Source: Maritimibacter alkaliphilus HTCC2654 (GTDB taxonomy: Bacteria > Pseudomonadota > Alphaproteobacteria > Rhodobacterales > Rhodobacteraceae). From it: a DNA stretch of 64,000 nucleotides. Below, piece after piece: positions 15,641 through 22,823 of this stretch. Location: contig NZ_CH902578.1 in NCBI RefSeq assembly GCF_000152805.1, forward strand, positions 62,001-126,000, given 5' to 3'. Under the pieces are notes generated by a model. That model saw only the letters and a list, made by a program, of their open reading frames with translations. It had not been told where the DNA came from and made no database searches. How positions within the stretch are numbered: the stretch's first letter is position 1; each line of letters opens with the position of its first letter. Made by a program: the position numbers and the translations under genes.

Positions 15641-17116
15641 ATGGAATTCGGATTCACCACCGCGGCCTACGTGGTCGCAGCCGTCCTCTTCATCCTGTCG
15701 CTGGGCGGGCTTTCGGGCCAGGAAAGCGCCAAACGGGCTGTCTGGTACGGCATCGTCGGCATGGCGCTGGCGGTTTTCGCAACGCTGATCGGGCCGGGCA
15801 CCGGCCTGTGGCTTCTGTCGGTCGTGCTCGTCGCGGCGGGCGGGATCATCGGCTTCTACGTCGCCAAGCGCGTCCAGATGACCGAGATGCCGCAACTCGT
15901 GGCGGCCATGCACTCGCTCGTCGGTCTGGCAGCCGTGTTCGTGGGCTACAACGCGCATCTCGAAATGGGCCGCGTGGCCGAGATCATGGCGTCGGCCCCC
16001 ACCTCGCTCAACGCGCAAGGCATGTCCGTCTGGCTGCATGAGCAGGGGCTGGGCACGTTCGGGGAACTGATCGCCAAGAAAAGCCAGGCCGAGCTGAACA
16101 TCCTCAAGGTTGAGCTGTTCCTTGGGATCTTCATCGGGGCCGTGACCTTCACCGGCTCGGTGATCGCCTATGGCAAACTTGCGGGCAAAGTGACCTCGGC
16201 GGCCAAGAAGCTGCCCGGCGGCCACGTTCTGAACGCGGGCGCCGCGATCATCTCGCTCATCGCGCTGATCTGGTACGTGGGCTCGGGCGCATTCCTGCCG
16301 CTCGCGATCATGACCGTCATGGCGCTTTTCATCGGCTACCACCTCATCATGGGGATCGGCGGCGCGGACATGCCCGTCGTGGTCTCGATGCTCAACTCGT
16401 ATTCGGGCTGGGCGGCGGCGGCCATCGGCTTCTCGCTGGGCAACGACCTCCTGATCGTGGTCGGCGCACTCGTGGGCTCGTCCGGTGCGATCCTGTCCTA
16501 CATCATGTGTAAGGCGATGAACCGGTCCTTCGTCTCGGTCATTCTGGGCGGCTTCGGCGGCCCGGCGGGCGAGCAGATGGAGATCGAAGGCGAGCAGAAG
16601 CCGATCGATGCCGAAGGTGTCGCGCAGGCGCTCAAGGATGCCGACAGCATCGTGATCGTGCCGGGCTACGGCATGGCCGTGGCGCAGGCGCAGAACGCGG
16701 TCAGCGACCTGACCAAGAAGCTGCGCGGGCAGGGGAAAGAGGTGCGTTTCGCCATCCACCCGGTCGCCGGGCGTCTTCCGGGCCACATGAACGTGCTGCT
16801 GGCCGAGGCCAAGGTGCCTTACGACATCGTGCTCGAGATGGAAGAGATCAACGACGACTTCCCCTCGACCGACGTGGTCATCGTCATCGGCTCGAACGAC
16901 ATCGTGAACCCGGCGGCGCAGGAAGATCCGAACTCGCCCATCGCCGGGATGCCGGTGCTGGAGGTCTGGAAGGCCAAGGACGTGTTCGTGTCGAAGCGCG
17001 GGCAGGGCACCGGCTATTCGGGCATCGAGAACCCGCTGTTCTACAAGGACAACACGCGGATGTTCTACGGCGACGCCAAGGATTCGGTCACCAGCCTCTT
17101 GTCGCTGCTCGACTGA
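15641..17116 (+). CDS. pntB: NAD(P) transhydrogenase subunit beta
   Basis: A 491-residue partner of PntA. About nine hydrophobic segments (residues 1-280) form the proton channel of domain II, followed by the NADP(H)-binding domain III, with the family motif [11 protein letters not shown], then [19 protein letters not shown] and a C-terminal [17 protein letters not shown]. The active complex is (alpha-beta)2. A bidirectional terminator directly after the stop ends the two-gene operon. Confidence 0.97.
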
Positions 17117-17138
17117 TCCTTTCGCAAGACAAGGAAAA

Positions 17139-17164
17139 GGCCCCGCGATCTGCGGGGCCATTTT
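17139..17164. terminator. Bidirectional terminator between pntB and a pilin-like gene
   Basis: GGCCCCGC (17139-17146) and GCGGGGCC (17152-17159) around GATCT, with ATTTT on the plus strand and TTTTCC on the minus strand. It serves pntB and the convergent small gene ending at 17184. Confidence 0.9.
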
Positions 17165-17183
17165 CGTTTCGGGGCCGGGCGGT

Positions 17184-17417
17184 TCAGTCCAGTTCGCTGG
17201 CGCCGTCCGCCTCGTCCTCCTGCCCGAATGTTTCGAGTGAGAAATCGTTGTCGGCGATTTCGACCATCGTGTCGTCAACCGCGTCGGCGAGTCCGGTGAC
17301 GCTTTGGTCGAAGGCGAAGATCACCCCGGTCGCAAGGCCGAATACGGCGGCGGTGAGAACAAGCCAGTCAACGGTGACAGCACCTGCATCGCTGCCGAAA
17401 AAAGTTTTCAAACGCAT
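17184..17417 (-). CDS. Pilin-like small membrane protein (Flp/TadE-like N-terminus)
   Basis: A 77-residue protein with a short basic leader (MRLKTFFGSD), the segment AGAVTVDWLVLTAAVFGLA forming one hydrophobic helix, and a very acidic tail. This layout is typical of small Roseobacter proteins annotated as Flp/type IVb pilin-like; the usual pilin cleavage Glu at +5 is replaced by Asp in VTVD, so processing is uncertain. No tad genes are in the window. The next minus-strand gene upstream has a related N-terminus (GAITVDFVVFWGG), so the two form a paralogous pair. Confidence 0.75.
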   Translation of the reverse strand: MRLKTFFGSDAGAVTVDWLVLTAAVFGLATGVIFAFDQSVTGLADAVDDTMVEIADNDFSLETFGQEDEADGASELD

Positions 17418-17609
17418 CGGTTTTCAATCCAGTCATAATGTGTCGTCCGAAATAAAAGTTATGTGGTCAATGCGGTCGCGTCGTGGCCCGAACCGGCGCG
17501 ATGAAAGGTTCTTTTGGGACCGCCGCGTCACAGCTGTTACCAGATGATTGACGCGGGGGCCGGTCTGCGGCGCGGGCGGCCCGATCCGTCCGCCTGCGCC
17601 TGTCGGGCA

Positions 17610-18155
17610 TCAGTCGTTCCACCCGTTGTGGTTGCCGTTGTTCCCGTTGTTCCCGTTATTGCCGTTGTTTCCCGAATTCCCGTTGTTTCCGGAATTGCCG
17701 TTCGAACCGGAATCGCTCATCCCGTTGGACCCCGATCCCCAGTCGTCACGCCCGTTCGGGTTTTCGCCGGCATTCCCGACATCCTTGTCGTTGCCCGGGT
17801 TGCCCGTGCCACCGTCGTTGCCGCTGTCGCTTCCGCTGTCGGAGCCTCCGGTTTCGTTTGACGCCGTGTCCTCGGTCCCGGTCACGTCATCGTCGGACGG
17901 GTCGTCGTCGTTTCCGGTCTGGTCGGGTGCGGCGGTCGTGGCGATGCCGGTGATTTCTTCGAGCGACAGGTTGGTCGCCGCGATTTCCTCCAGCGCGCCC
18001 GAGATGCCGTCGGCGGCGCGGATCACGCCATGCGACACGTCGCCGACGACGGTATAGGCCATCAGCATGGAGCCCCCCCAGAACACCACGAAATCGACCG
18101 TGATGGCGCCGGTTTCGTCTTTGAGGAAGTTCGATATCGCGGATTTGAGCAGCAT
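17610..18155 (-). CDS. Pilin-like protein with acidic, Asn/Gly-repeat tail
   Basis: 181 residues. The N-terminus (KDETGAITVDFVVFWGG) matches the pilin-like neighbour ending at 17184, followed by one hydrophobic helix to about residue 38. After an amphipathic stretch comes an acidic Thr/Asp/Ser region (80-115) and then an almost pure Asn/Gly/Ser tail (about 140-178) made of short NNG and NSG repeats. The tail is probably extracellular and disordered. The tail's DNA (17622-17708) is a degenerate tandem repeat that could expand or contract. Function unknown; a surface filament or matrix component is possible. Confidence 0.75.
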   Translation of the reverse strand: MLLKSAISNFLKDETGAITVDFVVFWGGSMLMAYTVVGDVSHGVIRAADGISGALEEIAATNLSLEEITGIATTAAPDQTGNDDDPSDDDVTGTEDTASNETGGSDSGSDSGNDGGTGNPGNDKDVGNAGENPNGRDDWGSGSNGMSDSGSNGNSGNNGNSGNNGNNGNNGNNGNHNGWND

Positions 18156-18395
18156 TCTAAACGTCTCGATCTGATGAACTGGTATCGTCGGGCAGAAGAC
18201 GACTTGGGGTAGGGATTACCCCCGGTTTCGGGCCGGAATAGGGTGCGATCACGCTGGGATTGGGCCATTTCTCGGCGATTGGTGACGAAAAAAGGGCAGG
18301 ATAACCCGTCCATGGCATCCTTGGGATCGGACGGGTCGAACGCGGCACCAATGTGGCCGGCGACCTGTGCCAAAGGATAGGGTCGGCGTCCCGGC
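18156..18395. other. Intergenic region, no gene seen
   Basis: 240 bp between rluE and the pilin-like gene start. The only notable structure is GGGGTA-GGGAT-TACCCC (18206-18222), about 50 bp upstream of the pilin-like start, a possible operator or leader hairpin. Confidence 0.4.
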
Positions 18396-18941
18396 CTAGC
18401 GCGCGTCGCGCCACGTGCCGGGTGCGATTCCCTCTACCGACCAGTCGCCCACGCGCCAACGCACGAGCCTGAGGGTGGGAAAACCCACGGCGGCGGTCAT
18501 GCGCCGGACCTGCCGGTTGCGCCCCTCGGTGATGGTGAGCTCGATCCAGCGATCCGGCACGCTTTTTCGATAGCGGACGGGCGGATCGCGCTCCCACAGG
18601 TCCGGCGGGTCGATCAGATGCACCTCGGCGGGGCGGGTGAGACCGTCTTTCAACGTCACACCCTTGCGCAACGGGTCGAGGTCGGCGTCGGTCGGTGCCC
18701 CTTCGACCTGCGCGAGATAGGTTTTCGGGGTGCGCGACTTGGGCGACGAAATGCGCGCCTGCAACCGTCCGTCATCGGTCAGAAGCAAAAGCCCCTCGCT
18801 GTCGCGGTCAAGCCGTCCTGCCGGGTAAACCTTTGGCACATCAATGTAATCCGACAGCGTCGCGCGCGGAGAGGGGGACTTGGTGTCGGTGAATTGCGAC
18901 AGCACGTCGAAGGGTTTGTTGAACAGGATCAATCTCGCCAT
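18396..18941 (-). CDS. rluE: 23S rRNA pseudouridine(2457) synthase family
   Basis: 181-residue RsuA-family pseudouridine synthase without the N-terminal S4 domain. The catalytic aspartate is D45 in [15 protein letters not shown], and the C-terminal RNA-contact motif [21 protein letters not shown] is intact. The start ([16 protein letters not shown]), length and KSVPDRW segment closely resemble E. coli RluE, which modifies the peptidyl-transferase region of 23S rRNA. It is divergent from the ornithine decarboxylase leader. Confidence 0.9.
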
Positions 18942-18984
18942 GTGTTCCGCATAAGCGGGTTTTCAAAAAATTTCACCCACGGAT

Positions 18985-19192
18985 TCAAAAACTCTTGCAA
19001 CGACTCAACACATGCCCCAAATGCGCAATTCAAGACGCCAACGCACGCGCCTCTGGCCACGACCGGCAGACCATATGAGCGACCCCCCGCCAAAAGGGGC
19101 TGCGAGGATGGATCGGCACGCGTTTATGCAGCGACGGTAACGTCTCCACTTGGAACCTTGGGGTACTGCACCCCTGTCTACTGGAGATAGAC
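18985..19192 (+). promoter_or_regulatory. Structured leader of the ornithine decarboxylase gene (speF-type RNA candidate)
   Basis: A conserved RNA motif named speF has been reported upstream of alphaproteobacterial ornithine decarboxylase genes; this leader is a candidate, although I cannot run a covariance model. Seen directly: a 42-codon reading frame (19012-19140), an anti-Shine-Dalgarno TCTCCA (19143-19148), a hairpin GGGGT-ACTGC-ACCCC (19160-19174), and a hairpin GTCTA/TAGAC (19176-19192) whose loop holds the decarboxylase ribosome site TGGAGA (19182-19187). TCTCCA can pair fully with TGGAGA, so exposed and sequestered states are mutually exclusive. Confidence 0.65.
19012..19140 (+). CDS. 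Arginine-rich leader peptide (uORF) of the decarboxylase gene
   Basis: 42 codons from ATG at 19012 to TAA at 19138-19140, with 10 arginines (five of them between residues 5 and 13) and the C-terminus HAFMQRR. No strong Shine-Dalgarno is seen; a second in-frame ATG at 19021 is an alternative start. The stop lies two bases before an anti-Shine-Dalgarno that can pair with the ribosome site of the decarboxylase gene, so a ribosome halted at the end of the uORF would cover it and free the downstream gene. By analogy, the unrelated enterobacterial SpeFL peptide arrests on ornithine and also ends in Arg. Coding status is an inference. Confidence 0.5.
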   Translation: MPQMRNSRRQRTRLWPRPADHMSDPPPKGAARMDRHAFMQRR

Positions 19193-20350
19193 ATGACCTA
19201 CGTTGCACAGGGCGATTTCGCCCCGATCACCCGTCTCGAAACCGCTGTTCAGTCGATGTCCGTGGACCGTCCGACGCTCGTCCTCGACGTCGACCGCGTG
19301 GAGTACCAGTTCCACCAGCTCGCCCAGGGCCTCGGCCGCGCCAACATCCACTACGCGGTGAAGGCGAACCCGACCCGCGAGATCATCGAGCGCCTCGTGA
19401 ACATCGGCTCGCATTTCGACGCCGCCTCGCGCGCCGAGATCGAGCTGTGCCTGTCGCAGGGTGCGGACCCGGCGGATATCTCCTTCGGCAACACCGTCAA
19501 GAAGGTCGGCGACATCGCCTTCGCCTGGCACGCCGGTGTGACCCTCTTCGCCGCAGATGCGGAAGAAGAGCTCGAAAAGATCGCCGAGCACGCGCCGGGC
19601 GCCGAAGTCTACATCCGCATGATCGTCGAGAACTCCCAGGCCGACTGGCCGCTCTCGCGCAAATTCGGCTGCCGTGGCGAGAAGGCGATCGACCTCATGG
19701 CCTATGCGGTCGAACTGGGCCTCAAGCCCGTCGGTCTGTCGTTCCACGTCGGCTCGCAGACCAAACGCGCCGAGATGTGGACCGGCGTGCTCGACGCCGT
19801 GGCCGAGATCTGGCACCGCGCCGTGGCCGAGGGCTATGACCTCGACCTTCTCAACATCGGCGGCGGCTTCCCGGCCTTCTACGGCGAAGCGATCGATGCG
19901 CCCGCCGCTTACGCTGCCCGCGTGATGGACCTCGTCACCGCGCGTTTCGGCGACGTGCCGCGCGTCATGGCAGAGCCGGGCCGGGGCCTCGTCGCCGAAT
20001 GCGGCGCGATCATCGCGGAAGTGCTGCTCGTGTCCAAGAAGTCGGACGACGACATGCATCGCTGGGTCTACCTCGACATCGGTCGTTTCTCTGGCCTTGC
20101 CGAGACCGAGGGCGAAGCGATCCGCTACCAGATCGCGACGCCGCGTGACGGTGGCGAGATGGGTCCCTGCATCCTCGCCGGTCCGTCCTGCGACAGCGCC
20201 GACGTGCTCTACGAGAAGCGCCCGATCATGCTGCCGCTCGCGCTCAAGTCGGGCGACCGGGCGATCATCCGCAACGCGGGTGCCTATACCTCGTCCTACT
20301 CCTCGGTCGGGTTCAACGGCTTCCCGCCGCTGGACGTCGTCGTTCTCTGA
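19193..20350 (+). CDS. Ornithine/lysine decarboxylase, fold-type III PLP
   Basis: A 385-residue PLP enzyme of the eukaryotic-type ODC/alanine-racemase fold that makes putrescine (or cadaverine) from ornithine (or lysine) in the cytoplasm. The PLP-binding lysine is K57 (HYAVKANP), H185 lies in SFHVGSQ, the phosphate loop is GGGFP at 223-227, EPGR is at 261-264, and the active-site C333-D334 lies in GPSCDSAD. The ATG at 19193 follows TGGAGA, held in the loop of a leader hairpin. A GC-rich hairpin, GGGGGC-GCTTT-GCCCCC, follows at 20367-20383. The upstream leader suggests translational control by polyamine or amino-acid level. Confidence 0.93.
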   Translation: MTYVAQGDFAPITRLETAVQSMSVDRPTLVLDVDRVEYQFHQLAQGLGRANIHYAVKANPTREIIERLVNIGSHFDAASRAEIELCLSQGADPADISFGNTVKKVGDIAFAWHAGVTLFAADAEEELEKIAEHAPGAEVYIRMIVENSQADWPLSRKFGCRGEKAIDLMAYAVELGLKPVGLSFHVGSQTKRAEMWTGVLDAVAEIWHRAVAEGYDLDLLNIGGGFPAFYGEAIDAPAAYAARVMDLVTARFGDVPRVMAEPGRGLVAECGAIIAEVLLVSKKSDDDMHRWVYLDIGRFSGLAETEGEAIRYQIATPRDGGEMGPCILAGPSCDSADVLYEKRPIMLPLALKSGDRAIIRNAGAYTSSYSSVGFNGFPPLDVVVL

Positions 20351-20464
20351 ACCCTCGTGACGCGTAGGGGGCGCTTTGCCCCCCGCGCGACAATCGACCA
20401 CTGTTTCGGTGACCTGACTTCGCGTAACCTCGCCTGACGAAACGCGACGAACGGGACCGGAACC

Positions 20465-21751
20465 ATGGCCACCATCGAAGACCATCCGCTGCGCTACGCG
20501 CTGGCGAACGAGTTGCACGCGCGCCCGTTCCCGTCGCTGGAAGCGCCTTGCTTCGCCGTCTACCTCGCCATCAAGCGGTCCGAGAACGCGGCGGGGCGGG
20601 ACCGGGCGGCGGATGTGGCGCACCTGACCGACCTGCTCGACCGCTACGGCACGGCGCATCCCAAGCCGGGGGCCAACCATTTCTTCGGCGACCTCGGGAA
20701 ATACCGGCTGAAGTGGGAGAGCCATACGGAGTTCGTGACCTACACGATCTTCGGGGACGGCAATTCCGACACGCCCTTCGACGGCAAGAACTTCGGCGTC
20801 TTTCCCCCGGACTGGCTGGAAAACGCGCCGGGGGTGCGCATGACCTCGGCCCTGATCCGGGTGGAGCGGATGCCGACGGATGCGGATATCCGGGCGAAGA
20901 TCGACAAGTGGTTCGTGCCCGAGAGCATGGCGGCGACCCACGTGCTCGACCGCGCCGGGATCATGGCCGGGGATTTCCGGATCGACGAGGCGGGACACGC
21001 GCGGTTCGCGTTCTTCGCAGGCGAGTCCTGTTCCCCGCGCCGCATCGGGCGGGTGGTGCAGCGGATCTGCGAGATCGAGACATACAAGCAGATGTCGATG
21101 CTGGGACTGGCCCGGGCCCGCGCGATCCAGGGGCGGCTGGGCGAGATGGGCGACGAGCTGTCGGGCCTCGTGGCCGACATGGGGAGCGAGACGATGGCCT
21201 CGGAGACCCGGTTGCAGAAGCTTCTGGGCATCTCGGCCGATCTGGAACGTCTGAACGCCGAAACCTCGTTCCGGTTCGGGGCGACGGCGGCCTATGAGGC
21301 CATCGTGAACCAGCGGATCGAGGTCTTGCGCGAGGAACGCTGGGACGGGCGGCAGACCTTTCGCGAATTCATGACCCGCCGCTACGATCCGGCGATGCGC
21401 ACCGTGAAGGCGGTCGAGAGGCAGTTGCACGACATGGCCGAACGCGCGATCCGCGCCGGTGACCTGCTGCGCACCAAGGTCGATGTGGAACGCTCGGCCG
21501 AGAACAAGGCGCTGCTGGAATCGATGGATCGGCGGGCCGACTTGCAGCTACGGCTGCAAGAGACGGTCGAAGGGCTGTCGGTGGTGGCGATCAGCTATTA
21601 CGCGGTCAGCCTTTTGGGCTATCTGACCGCCCCCGTCGCCAGTGCGCTGCACGTGGACAAGGTGTGGTGGACCGCCGGGCTGGTCATCCCCGTCGTGCTG
21701 CTGGTCTGGCTTGCGGGCCGGACGGTGCGAAAACGGCTGATCCCGCACTAG
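20465..21751 (+). CDS. DUF3422 family membrane-anchored protein
   Basis: A 428-residue protein of the DUF3422 family: N-terminal ELHARPFP motif, a conserved middle (GKYRLKWESHTEFVTYT), a long helical region with coiled-coil character (about 200-365), and two C-terminal hydrophobic helices (about 375-420) that anchor it in the inner membrane. Function is unknown; members are widespread in proteobacteria, often as single genes. It follows the decarboxylase gene by 114 bp with a hairpin between, so co-transcription is uncertain. Confidence 0.88.
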   Translation: MATIEDHPLRYALANELHARPFPSLEAPCFAVYLAIKRSENAAGRDRAADVAHLTDLLDRYGTAHPKPGANHFFGDLGKYRLKWESHTEFVTYTIFGDGNSDTPFDGKNFGVFPPDWLENAPGVRMTSALIRVERMPTDADIRAKIDKWFVPESMAATHVLDRAGIMAGDFRIDEAGHARFAFFAGESCSPRRIGRVVQRICEIETYKQMSMLGLARARAIQGRLGEMGDELSGLVADMGSETMASETRLQKLLGISADLERLNAETSFRFGATAAYEAIVNQRIEVLREERWDGRQTFREFMTRRYDPAMRTVKAVERQLHDMAERAIRAGDLLRTKVDVERSAENKALLESMDRRADLQLRLQETVEGLSVVAISYYAVSLLGYLTAPVASALHVDKVWWTAGLVIPVVLLVWLAGRTVRKRLIPH

Positions 21752-21770
21752 GATCAGCCGCTCGGCAGCG

Positions 21771-22823
21771 TCATTCGGCGGGCACGGCCAGACCGCGCGG
21801 GGCGGCCTCTCCCAGCGCGCGGGAGGCGACGAGGGCGCCGCCCGCGATGGCCACGAGGGCGAGGATCGCGGCGAGCGACAGGGTCGGCACGCCCGACAGG
21901 CCCGCACCTACGGTGCAGCCGCCCGCCAGCACGCCCCCGATCCCCATCAGCGCCGCGCCGGACGCGTAACGCCCGGTTTCGCGGGGGGAGGTGAAGCTCT
22001 GCCATTTGAAGCTGCGGAACACGAGCGACGCGAGCAGGGCACCGCCAAGGACGCCACCGATCAGCGCCGTGCCGAAACCCGCCGGGATCGAGGTCGAGGC
22101 GATGGTGAAGAACAGCGCCTCGGTCGCGGGCGAGGTGAACGACAGGCTTTCCATCGCGATCGGGTCGAAATCGTCATAGAGCACGTATCCCGTGCCCACC
22201 CAGGCAAGCGGAACGAGCAGACCCAGAAGCGTGGCCAGTAAAAGGGTGCCGGGGCGGTTGCCGGACCGCAGGGCCCCGGCCAGCGCGGCCACGGCGATCA
22301 CGGCGGACCACAACAGCGCACCGCCGGGCAGGGCGGCAAGGCTGACCGCGTCGCCCAAGGGCAGGGTGACGGCACCCAGCGACGTGCGGATCGGGGCCAG
22401 AACGCCCTTCAGCGTGGCATGGGCCACGACCGCGAAGACGAGGATCACGAACAGCGCGCGCAGGTTGCCGGTGCCCCCCAGCACGGTCAGGCGCGATGCG
22501 CAGCCACGGGCCAGCACCATGCCCGCCCCGAACAGGGCACCCCCTATGAGGATGGCGAGGATCGGCAGATCGCCCGTCATGAAGCGGTGATCGTCGAACG
22601 CGATCAGCCCGGCGGCCACGGCGGCCTGCGTGCCGATCAGCGCACTCGCCAGCGCCATGAACCAGACACCGGCGGCGGCGCGGCGATCCTGCCCCACGAC
22701 GGCCCGTCGGAAGCAGAACTTCGTGCGCTCGGCCAGCACGCCGAACAAAACCCCGACAAGGGCACCGAACATAACGGCGACCTGCGGTGCGGTGAGCGTT
22801 TCAAACCCAAGGCTTTCGAACAT
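21771..22823 (-). CDS. YeeE/YedE (TsuA-like) sulfur-compound transporter
   Basis: A 350-residue polytopic inner-membrane protein with about nine or ten helices. The conserved cysteines of the family are present: C37 (ERTKFCFRR), C108 (ARGCASR) and C303 (AGGCTVGAGLSG). Characterised relatives import thiosulfate by relaying it between such cysteines. No TusA-like partner is adjacent, unlike many yeeE loci. It is convergent with the DUF3422 gene, and GGGGGAA precedes its ATG. Thiosulfate or a related sulfur species is the inferred substrate. Confidence 0.87.
   Translation of the reverse strand: MFESLGFETLTAPQVAVMFGALVGVLFGVLAERTKFCFRRAVVGQDRRAAAGVWFMALASALIGTQAAVAAGLIAFDDHRFMTGDLPILAILIGGALFGAGMVLARGCASRLTVLGGTGNLRALFVILVFAVVAHATLKGVLAPIRTSLGAVTLPLGDAVSLAALPGGALLWSAVIAVAALAGALRSGNRPGTLLLATLLGLLVPLAWVGTGYVLYDDFDPIAMESLSFTSPATEALFFTIASTSIPAGFGTALIGGVLGGALLASLVFRSFKWQSFTSPRETGRYASGAALMGIGGVLAGGCTVGAGLSGVPTLSLAAILALVAIAGGALVASRALGEAAPRGLAVPAE

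Follow-up and report, generated by a model that had tools for sequence, protein, structure and literature searches.

In enterobacteria, the gene of an ornithine decarboxylase (ODC) of another fold family than the one considered here is controlled through SpeFL, a leader peptide that senses ornithine and arrests the ribosome. In Alphaproteobacteria, the speF leader (RF00518) lies upstream of ODC. According to the available text of the original report, its conservation begins near the putative transcription start and a large insertion tops its stem; in-line probing of the Agrobacterium tumefaciens speF leader, as far as this text goes, revealed no binding of ornithine, lysine, diaminopimelate, putrescine, cadaverine or spermidine (PMC1273637). 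The accessible part of a 2013 survey gives speF a count of 12 and places it with the motifs confined to three groups or fewer (PMC3766115). SmrC45 of Sinorhizobium meliloti is described, in the excerpt at hand, as a discrete 181-nt transcript with a mapped 5′ end and an assigned Rho-independent terminator (PMC2780559). The corresponding family, alpha-r45 (RF02347), is termed functionally uncharacterised in the accessible sections of a later article, which report that its expression in Bartonella is independent of the speF leader, hypothesise a trans role with Hfq and cite its co-immunoprecipitation with Hfq (PMC7717549). The odc1 motif (uORF-25-1) is another alphaproteobacterial RNA before ODC; its description, in the portion consulted, comprises one hairpin plus a pseudoknot, a ribosome site placed in a stem, and twin UUG starts, the first of which serves an 11-aa uORF (PMC8632094). 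No function is assigned to the speF leader (2005) or to alpha-r45/SmrC45 (2007) in the literature examined. In the open-access articles searched, neither element is placed in Rhodobacteraceae or before a homospermidine synthase gene.

The window analysed here is a stretch of 64,000 nucleotides from Maritimibacter alkaliphilus HTCC2654 (Rhodobacteraceae), and all coordinates refer to it. It carries a gene whose product has as its best solved relative the lysine/ornithine decarboxylase 2plj (E 2.9e-55); every one of its NCBIfam matches falls below the curated cut-off. We consider it likely that this ODC mRNA begins with a structured RNA switch acting in cis and that this leader represents the Rhodobacteraceae branch of the alphaproteobacterial alpha-r45 (RF02347) element. 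The features discussed below are the following.

18995..19000, plus strand: predicted −35 box TTGCAA, from the column profile of leaders, with a 17-nt spacer to the −10 box
19012..19140, plus strand: rejected Arg-rich uORF, read as an accidental open frame from phase, stop and start counts in relatives
19018..19023, plus strand: predicted −10 box CAAATG, from the column profile of leaders and the sequence
19034..19056, plus strand: conserved block 1, GACGCCAACGCACGCGCCTCTGG, 23 nt, predicted RNA 5′ end, near-invariant among the leaders listed (98 collected)
19034..19037, plus strand: P1 5′ strand GACG, able to pair with 19141-19144 and matching GACGC:GCGUC in other orders
19042..19043, plus strand: P2 5′ strand, pairing with 19135-19136
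19046..19050, plus strand: P3 5′ strand, pairing with 19128-19133, A19130 bulged
19057..19121, plus strand: variable insert between the two blocks
19122..19147, plus strand: conserved block 2, GTTTATGCAGCGACGGTAACGTCTCC, holding the 3′ strands of P3, P2 and P1, from an alignment of 14 leaders and pair counts
19143..19147, plus strand: anti-Shine-Dalgarno (anti-SD) UCUCC, overlapping the P1 3′ strand, from duplex, permutation and folding tests
19160..19174, plus strand: small hairpin GGGGT/ACCCC between anti-SD and SD, from the sequence alone
19176..19192, plus strand: alternative hairpin GTCTA/TAGAC with the SD in its loop; GUC..GGAGA..GAC in 69 of 96 leaders
19183..19187, plus strand: ODC Shine-Dalgarno (SD) GGAGA, from the sequence
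19193..20350, plus strand: ODC gene, an alanine-racemase-fold PLP decarboxylase, from structure-relative and NCBIfam searches

The window element resembles alpha-r45 in its position before ODC, in two conserved blocks that in alpha-r45 read CGCACGuGCC and GCAACGaCGG and follow in the same order, and in a helix closing the structure. In alpha-r45 this helix is GCCC:GGGC and runs into a U tract, which suggests a terminator and an opposite polarity, whereas P1 of the window, GACG:CGUC, is not followed by a run of four U. A run of at least four U within 12 nt after P1, absent from the window, occurs in 10 of 96 Rhodobacteraceae leaders. Moreover, the 3′ edge of the window element is the anti-SD for ODC, whereas alpha-r45 is catalogued as an sRNA and not as a leader. 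With the speF leader the element shares the position upstream of an alphaproteobacterial ODC gene; the Rfam speF model, however, covers the stretch just 3′ of the alpha-r45 part, and nothing similar is present in the window. The odc1 motif, compared by description only, differs by its twin UUG starts from the window, where a single ATG (19193) follows GGAGA. As with SpeFL, the ODC gene would be controlled through its leader, but the window leader holds no conserved peptide.

Membership in the Rfam families by score is ruled out. RF02347 did not match the window at gathering (40 bits) or up to E 10. The same is true for RF00518, so that the speF scan suggested by the first-pass annotation returned no match in the window leader. 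Such a match was also not obtained with the Rfam models in 20 leaders from the class and the family, and among 39 relatives RF02347 had no match above cut-off, the weak ones listed falling elsewhere. The same annotation had linked the leader to the alphaproteobacterial speF region, and this relation is supported by way of alpha-r45: all four loci retrieved with RF00518, three of them above cut-off, have RF02347 just upstream, and a model of leaders from other families (R2, see below) matches the RF02347 position in two of the four (L023 and L024). Since R2 finds the window as well as these two loci and the Rfam models miss the window, we assign the element of the window to alpha-r45 as a compact branch that has diverged. 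The Rhizobiales-type branch would be the one catalogued as the sRNA alpha-r45, adjoining the speF leader (RF00518).

Within the family, the element is closely tied to ODC. A DNA search of 61 genomes gave matches in 16, and on reading these, two near-invariant blocks before ODC became apparent. The alignment of 14 Rhodobacteraceae leaders contains 39 invariant columns, and the sequence-only model R1 derived from the 14 leaders matched 100 of 295 genomes of the family. ODC was found at E 1e-100 or better in 34 of 100 family genomes sampled; the same 34 are the sample genomes listed with an R1 match, as counted among the matches listed, where non-matching genomes are not all included. The exact block 1 22-mer occurs in at least 117 stretches of the GTDB collection. 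Among those listed, 109 continue with block 2 and ODC, seven end at the limit of the stored sequence and one (L242) shows ODC with no recognised block 2. An exact Rhodobacteraceae block 1 together with block 2 and ODC was also seen in records labelled as Pseudovibrio exalbescens (L246) and as a Nitratireductor MAG (L350), with ODCs 59% and 68% identical, respectively. Either the leader and its gene were transferred horizontally as a unit, or the bins carry the wrong label.

We collected 98 distinct leaders (cores) in the family, with L013 and L114 missed; 60 of 65 sequences were taken in at R1 sites outside a locus. Counts of P1 and anti-SD/SD pairing, folding and U runs refer to 96 leaders, L014 and L115 being excluded, and the codon count omits L115. 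The blocks and the insert together span 63-120 nt, and block 2 ends in the anti-SD. In the window, 74 nt separate the end of block 1 from GCGACGG; across the 98 leaders this distance varies from 17 to 74 nt. The idea that the inserts as a class are strongly structured was rejected (mean z −0.33 over 92 leaders), and the folding energy of the whole window leader is ordinary in comparison with shuffles (z −0.24). Upstream of block 1, TTG occurs at −39/−38 relative to the block 80 times over the 98 leaders, and their column profile shows an AT-rich hexamer near −15 to −10. Given these putative promoter boxes, transcription would start at about 19031-19034, i.e. at block 1.

Among the helices, P3 appears to be the best supported one, a compensatory exchange at one of its pairs being fixed between lineages. 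All 97 Rhodobacteraceae leaders have C-G at 19048:19131, and 46 of the 48 leaders from elsewhere have U-A there, the two remaining rows (L131 and L135) being mis-anchored; most slid registers of P3 do not pair. The exchange could go back to one event that became fixed when a lineage arose. At 19049:19129, the 5′ base is A in seven of 145 leaders and the partner is U in six of these, an association that is not significant in this set (Fisher p 0.13). P2 consists of two C-G pairs that are constant except in one row. P1 is almost invariant in Rhodobacteraceae and reads GACGC:GCGUC in most leaders of other orders. It is re-paired in single cases (L132, L166, L172 and L232) and pairs poorly in L122 and L156, where it does worse than most foreign partners. 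In permutation tests, from which L141, L146, L148 and L233 were excluded, the value observed for P1 was reached by 445 of 500 permutations in Rhodobacteraceae, 22 of 500 in the others and 397 of 500 when pooled; for the 13 deviant leaders the figure was 160 of 2000. Judged from these tests, covariation of P1 outside Rhodobacteraceae is only suggestive. In neither of two alignments did RNAalifold report a pair that had changed on both sides.

The 3′ edge of the element is where regulation of translation would take place. The first-pass annotation had noted that TCTCCA (19143-19148) is complementary to TGGAGA (19182-19187) and that a second hairpin, GTCTA/TAGAC (19176-19180/19188-19192), surrounds the SD. 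The letters are correct in both cases, and the hairpin recurs as GUC..GGAGA..GAC in the majority of leaders, as listed above. Its view that the anti-SD is able to hide the ODC ribosome site is upheld by a conserved pair and by the predicted folds of 96 leaders. In all 96 Rhodobacteraceae leaders measured, the anti-SD/SD duplex amounts to −7.7 kcal/mol or better. The median unpaired fraction of the SD is 0.005 in native leaders versus 0.343 after dinucleotide shuffling of the upstream part, and 4% of the shuffles (five per leader, 96 leaders) are as low as the native median. Ranked as partners of the SD, the anti-SD segments come strictly first in 50 of 96 leaders and lie within rank 2 in 88. 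The expectation that the pair is conserved and covaries was borne out in part: the duplex is kept in 96 of 96 leaders, and own partners beat permuted ones across lineages but not within Rhodobacteraceae or the other orders. The observed value was reached by 199 of 500 permutations in Rhodobacteraceae, 82 of 500 in other orders and 0 of 500 when pooled across lineages; the anti-SD/SD permutation test is significant across lineages only.

Folding predictions outline how the switch might operate. By default, the anti-SD (19143-19147) would hide the SD (19183-19187): in the free ensemble of the 96 leaders the SD is unpaired at 0.03, the anti-SD:SD helix has a value of 0.92 and P1 is at about 0. 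If P1 forms (19034-19037 with 19141-19144), the anti-SD would be captured, the SD set free and ODC translated. Forcing P1 in the folding calculation raises SD openness to 0.54, makes the SD more open in 94 of 96 leaders and has a median cost of 7.0 kcal/mol. Because of this cost and the near-zero probability in the free ensemble, P1 would need tertiary contacts or a ligand to pay for it. The conserved core would sense a signal from polyamine metabolism, either a metabolite or a protein, which would tip the equilibrium towards P1 or towards the anti-SD helix. Among 28 leaders of other orders, namely those with GACG, CGTC and a clear SD, the SD is hidden as well (0.05) and forcing P1 opens it in 10 of 28 only; ON polarity is therefore a prediction for Rhodobacteraceae. 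It conflicts with the terminator-like P1 of alpha-r45. The candidate riboswitch core thus far comprises P3, which is changed on both sides between lineages, and the anti-SD platform, together with a suggestive P1 and RNAalifold results devoid of a both-sided change, and ligand binding is putative.

The same switch might respond to a protein recognising the core in place of a metabolite, be it a polyamine-linked RNA-binding protein or Hfq, which we hold to be rather unlikely. Large sets of invariant columns are typical of aptamers, and the 39 found in 14 leaders would speak against a protein. In its favor, the available text on in-line probing has none of six metabolites bound (PMC1273637), and co-immunoprecipitation of alpha-r45 with Hfq is cited in the part of PMC7717549 considered here.

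A switch sensing the polyamine pathway is consistent with the genes that follow the element elsewhere. An ODC search in 190 genomes of the class gave a match in 66. Other families contributed 67 ODC loci (L118-L184), and 27 of these have both blocks in the general form CGCACGUGCC ... GGUUAUGCAACGACG, with 2 and 4 mismatches tolerated, at 173-459 nt before the point where the ODC alignment starts; in the remaining 40 loci they were not found within 650 nt upstream (less at contig ends). Alignment A2 and model R2 were built from 21 of the 27 leaders, leaving out L120, L122, L141, L146, L148 and L156. R2 finds the window element at 19032-19147 as the best match of its genome (E 2.5e-5) and, at E<0.001, matches 12 of 24 family genomes, all of which, and no others, were positive in the DNA search. 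In the reverse direction, R1 recovers 17 of the 21 other-family leaders at E 0.0014 or better. R2 matches 35 of 190 genomes in the class and 6 of 200 in a sample of the phylum, all six labelled as own, same family or same class. Upstream of ODC in L143 and L162 we noticed a variant core, CCCACGU[GA]CC ... GGYAACGAGG, which may be closed by another helix, GCAC:GUGC; both loci stand outside the counts.

Twenty further R2 sites were taken in and ten downstream ORFs scanned against NCBIfam. Five of the ten are lysA/ODC-like decarboxylases, below the cut-offs, and one is a 1,9-bis(guanidino)-5-aza-nonane synthase of the deoxyhypusine-synthase family, above cut-off. One agmatinase-like fragment and one glutamine amidotransferase-like ORF stayed below the cut-offs, and two had no NCBIfam match. 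Relatives of solved structure identify homospermidine synthases in L221 and L236, the decarboxylase of L221 being ODC-like, and the second ORFs of L219, L220, L232 and L238 have a homospermidine synthase N-terminus in common, as seen by eye. Copies of the element thus appear to precede ODC-like, homospermidine synthase, deoxyhypusine-synthase-family and agmatinase-like genes, which together resemble a polyamine regulon. Copies before polyamine genes were noted in L219-L221, L226, L232, L236 and L237, in part tested, and by eye in L224, L225, L228 and L238. In L234, a copy lies directly 5′ of the glutamine amidotransferase-like gene.

These genomic contexts also bear on the proposal that alpha-r45 acts in trans, as a short 5′ transcript with other mRNAs as its targets, and that its location ahead of ODC is of secondary importance. 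We consider this improbable. It draws on the discrete 181-nt SmrC45 transcript with its assigned Rho-independent terminator, as given in the available part of PMC2780559, and on the Bartonella expression independent of the speF leader and the Hfq-linked trans hypothesis in the accessible text of PMC7717549. On the other hand, the element is tied to ODC in Rhodobacteraceae and carries an anti-SD for the very same mRNA, second copies likewise precede polyamine genes, and only the 10 leaders mentioned above have a U run after P1. A third proposal, in which a transcription factor binds block 1 as a DNA operator at the start site while block 2 independently forms a hairpin controlling the ribosome site, is very unlikely: block 1 does sit at the predicted start site, but the pair 19048:19131, with one base in each block, changed together between lineages despite 17-74 nt between the blocks.

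The least credible explanation is that of the first-pass annotation, in which a ribosome translating an Arg-rich leader peptide stalls at the stop, covers the anti-SD and turns ODC on, since the uORF is not conserved and its ATG would precede the transcript, given the start predicted here. Its description of the frame, 42 codons with 10 Arg and the C-terminus HAFMQRR, is accurate, the anti-SD is adjacent, and SpeFL of enterobacteria works through arrest. However, 61 ORFs of at least 30 aa overlap 16500-22500, so that such a frame is unremarkable by chance. Its ATG at 19012 falls inside the predicted promoter, between the −35 box and the −10 box; block 1 begins 22 nt further downstream, and the presumed transcript start about 20 nt. 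The check on close relatives proposed at the outset revealed both stops and phase changes. Codon CAG 19129-19131, inside the HAFMQRR stretch, is TAG in 68 of 97 relatives in the leader alignment; the spacing from block 1 to GCGACGG falls into three phases (33, 38 and 27 of 98 leaders); the reading frame of the window is open through to the same TAA in 8 of 98 leaders, and an ATG within 60 nt plus the same stop is found in 4 of 98. There are ATGs within the predicted transcript in the frame of the window, one of them behind an SD-like stretch. A uORF starting there in the same frame was considered and discarded: of 97 leaders, 68 have the TAG, 23 a start and an open frame, and 6 an open frame with no start.

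The suspicion that part of the RNA conservation is peptide conservation in disguise had it the wrong way round. The C-to-T change at the CAG codon turns the P3 pair 19049:19129 from G-C into G-U, which keeps the pairing and ends the peptide. As this change is present in 68 of 97 relatives, the substitutions follow the base pairing and not the codons, which makes the locus a clean case of an apparent uORF excluded through substitutions that keep pairs and break codons. The ODC leader is thus probably not a small regulatory peptide, and the alignments argue that a conserved peptide is not involved in the Rhodobacteraceae branch.

In other orders, the leader ORF idea may apply to a different ORF, since in 20 of the 27 other-family leaders the element is followed by a separate ORF of 21-59 codons that starts with ATG and has its own SD. 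Of the other seven, L120, L128, L138 and L144 run in frame into ODC and three are devoid of a clear start. Short leader ORFs 55-65 nt past the element were seen in L119, L121 and L134, also in L123, L125, L133, L139 and L147. Several leader ORFs end in a motif like NPLSS or PSS[MIL] (..GRKNPLSSMCSRQ, ..GRENPLSSQR). Unlike the window frame, they possibly encode a conserved leader peptide.

The Rhodobacteraceae element may be one branch of an old and widespread bacterial RNA that hides or exposes a ribosome site and controls polyamine production. Going further, we tentatively suggest, at slightly less than even chances, that alpha-r45, rather than acting in trans as an sRNA, is a 5′ fragment released from a single ancient riboswitch that occurs across the class, responds to a polyamine-pathway signal and also governs homospermidine synthase operons. 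If true, it would have three outputs: in Rhizobiales it would terminate transcription, in several other orders it would control translation of a short leader ORF, and in Rhodobacteraceae it would act directly on ODC translation. Joining alpha-r45/speF to the compact Rhodobacteraceae form, to ODC-like and homospermidine synthase operons and to the anti-SD platform turns an orphan sRNA into a testable switch of the polyamine pathway. The short constructs of 63-120 nt are suited for ligand screens, and the gene set narrows the candidate signals.

The divergent neighbor of ODC in the window (18396-18941, minus strand) encodes an rRNA pseudouridine synthase, with TIGR00093 above cut-off and RluE-like matches below. 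Two small ORFs further on (17610-18155 and 17184-17417, both minus strand) resemble Flp-type small membrane or pilin-like proteins by eye, the former with a long Asn/Gly/Asp-rich tail.
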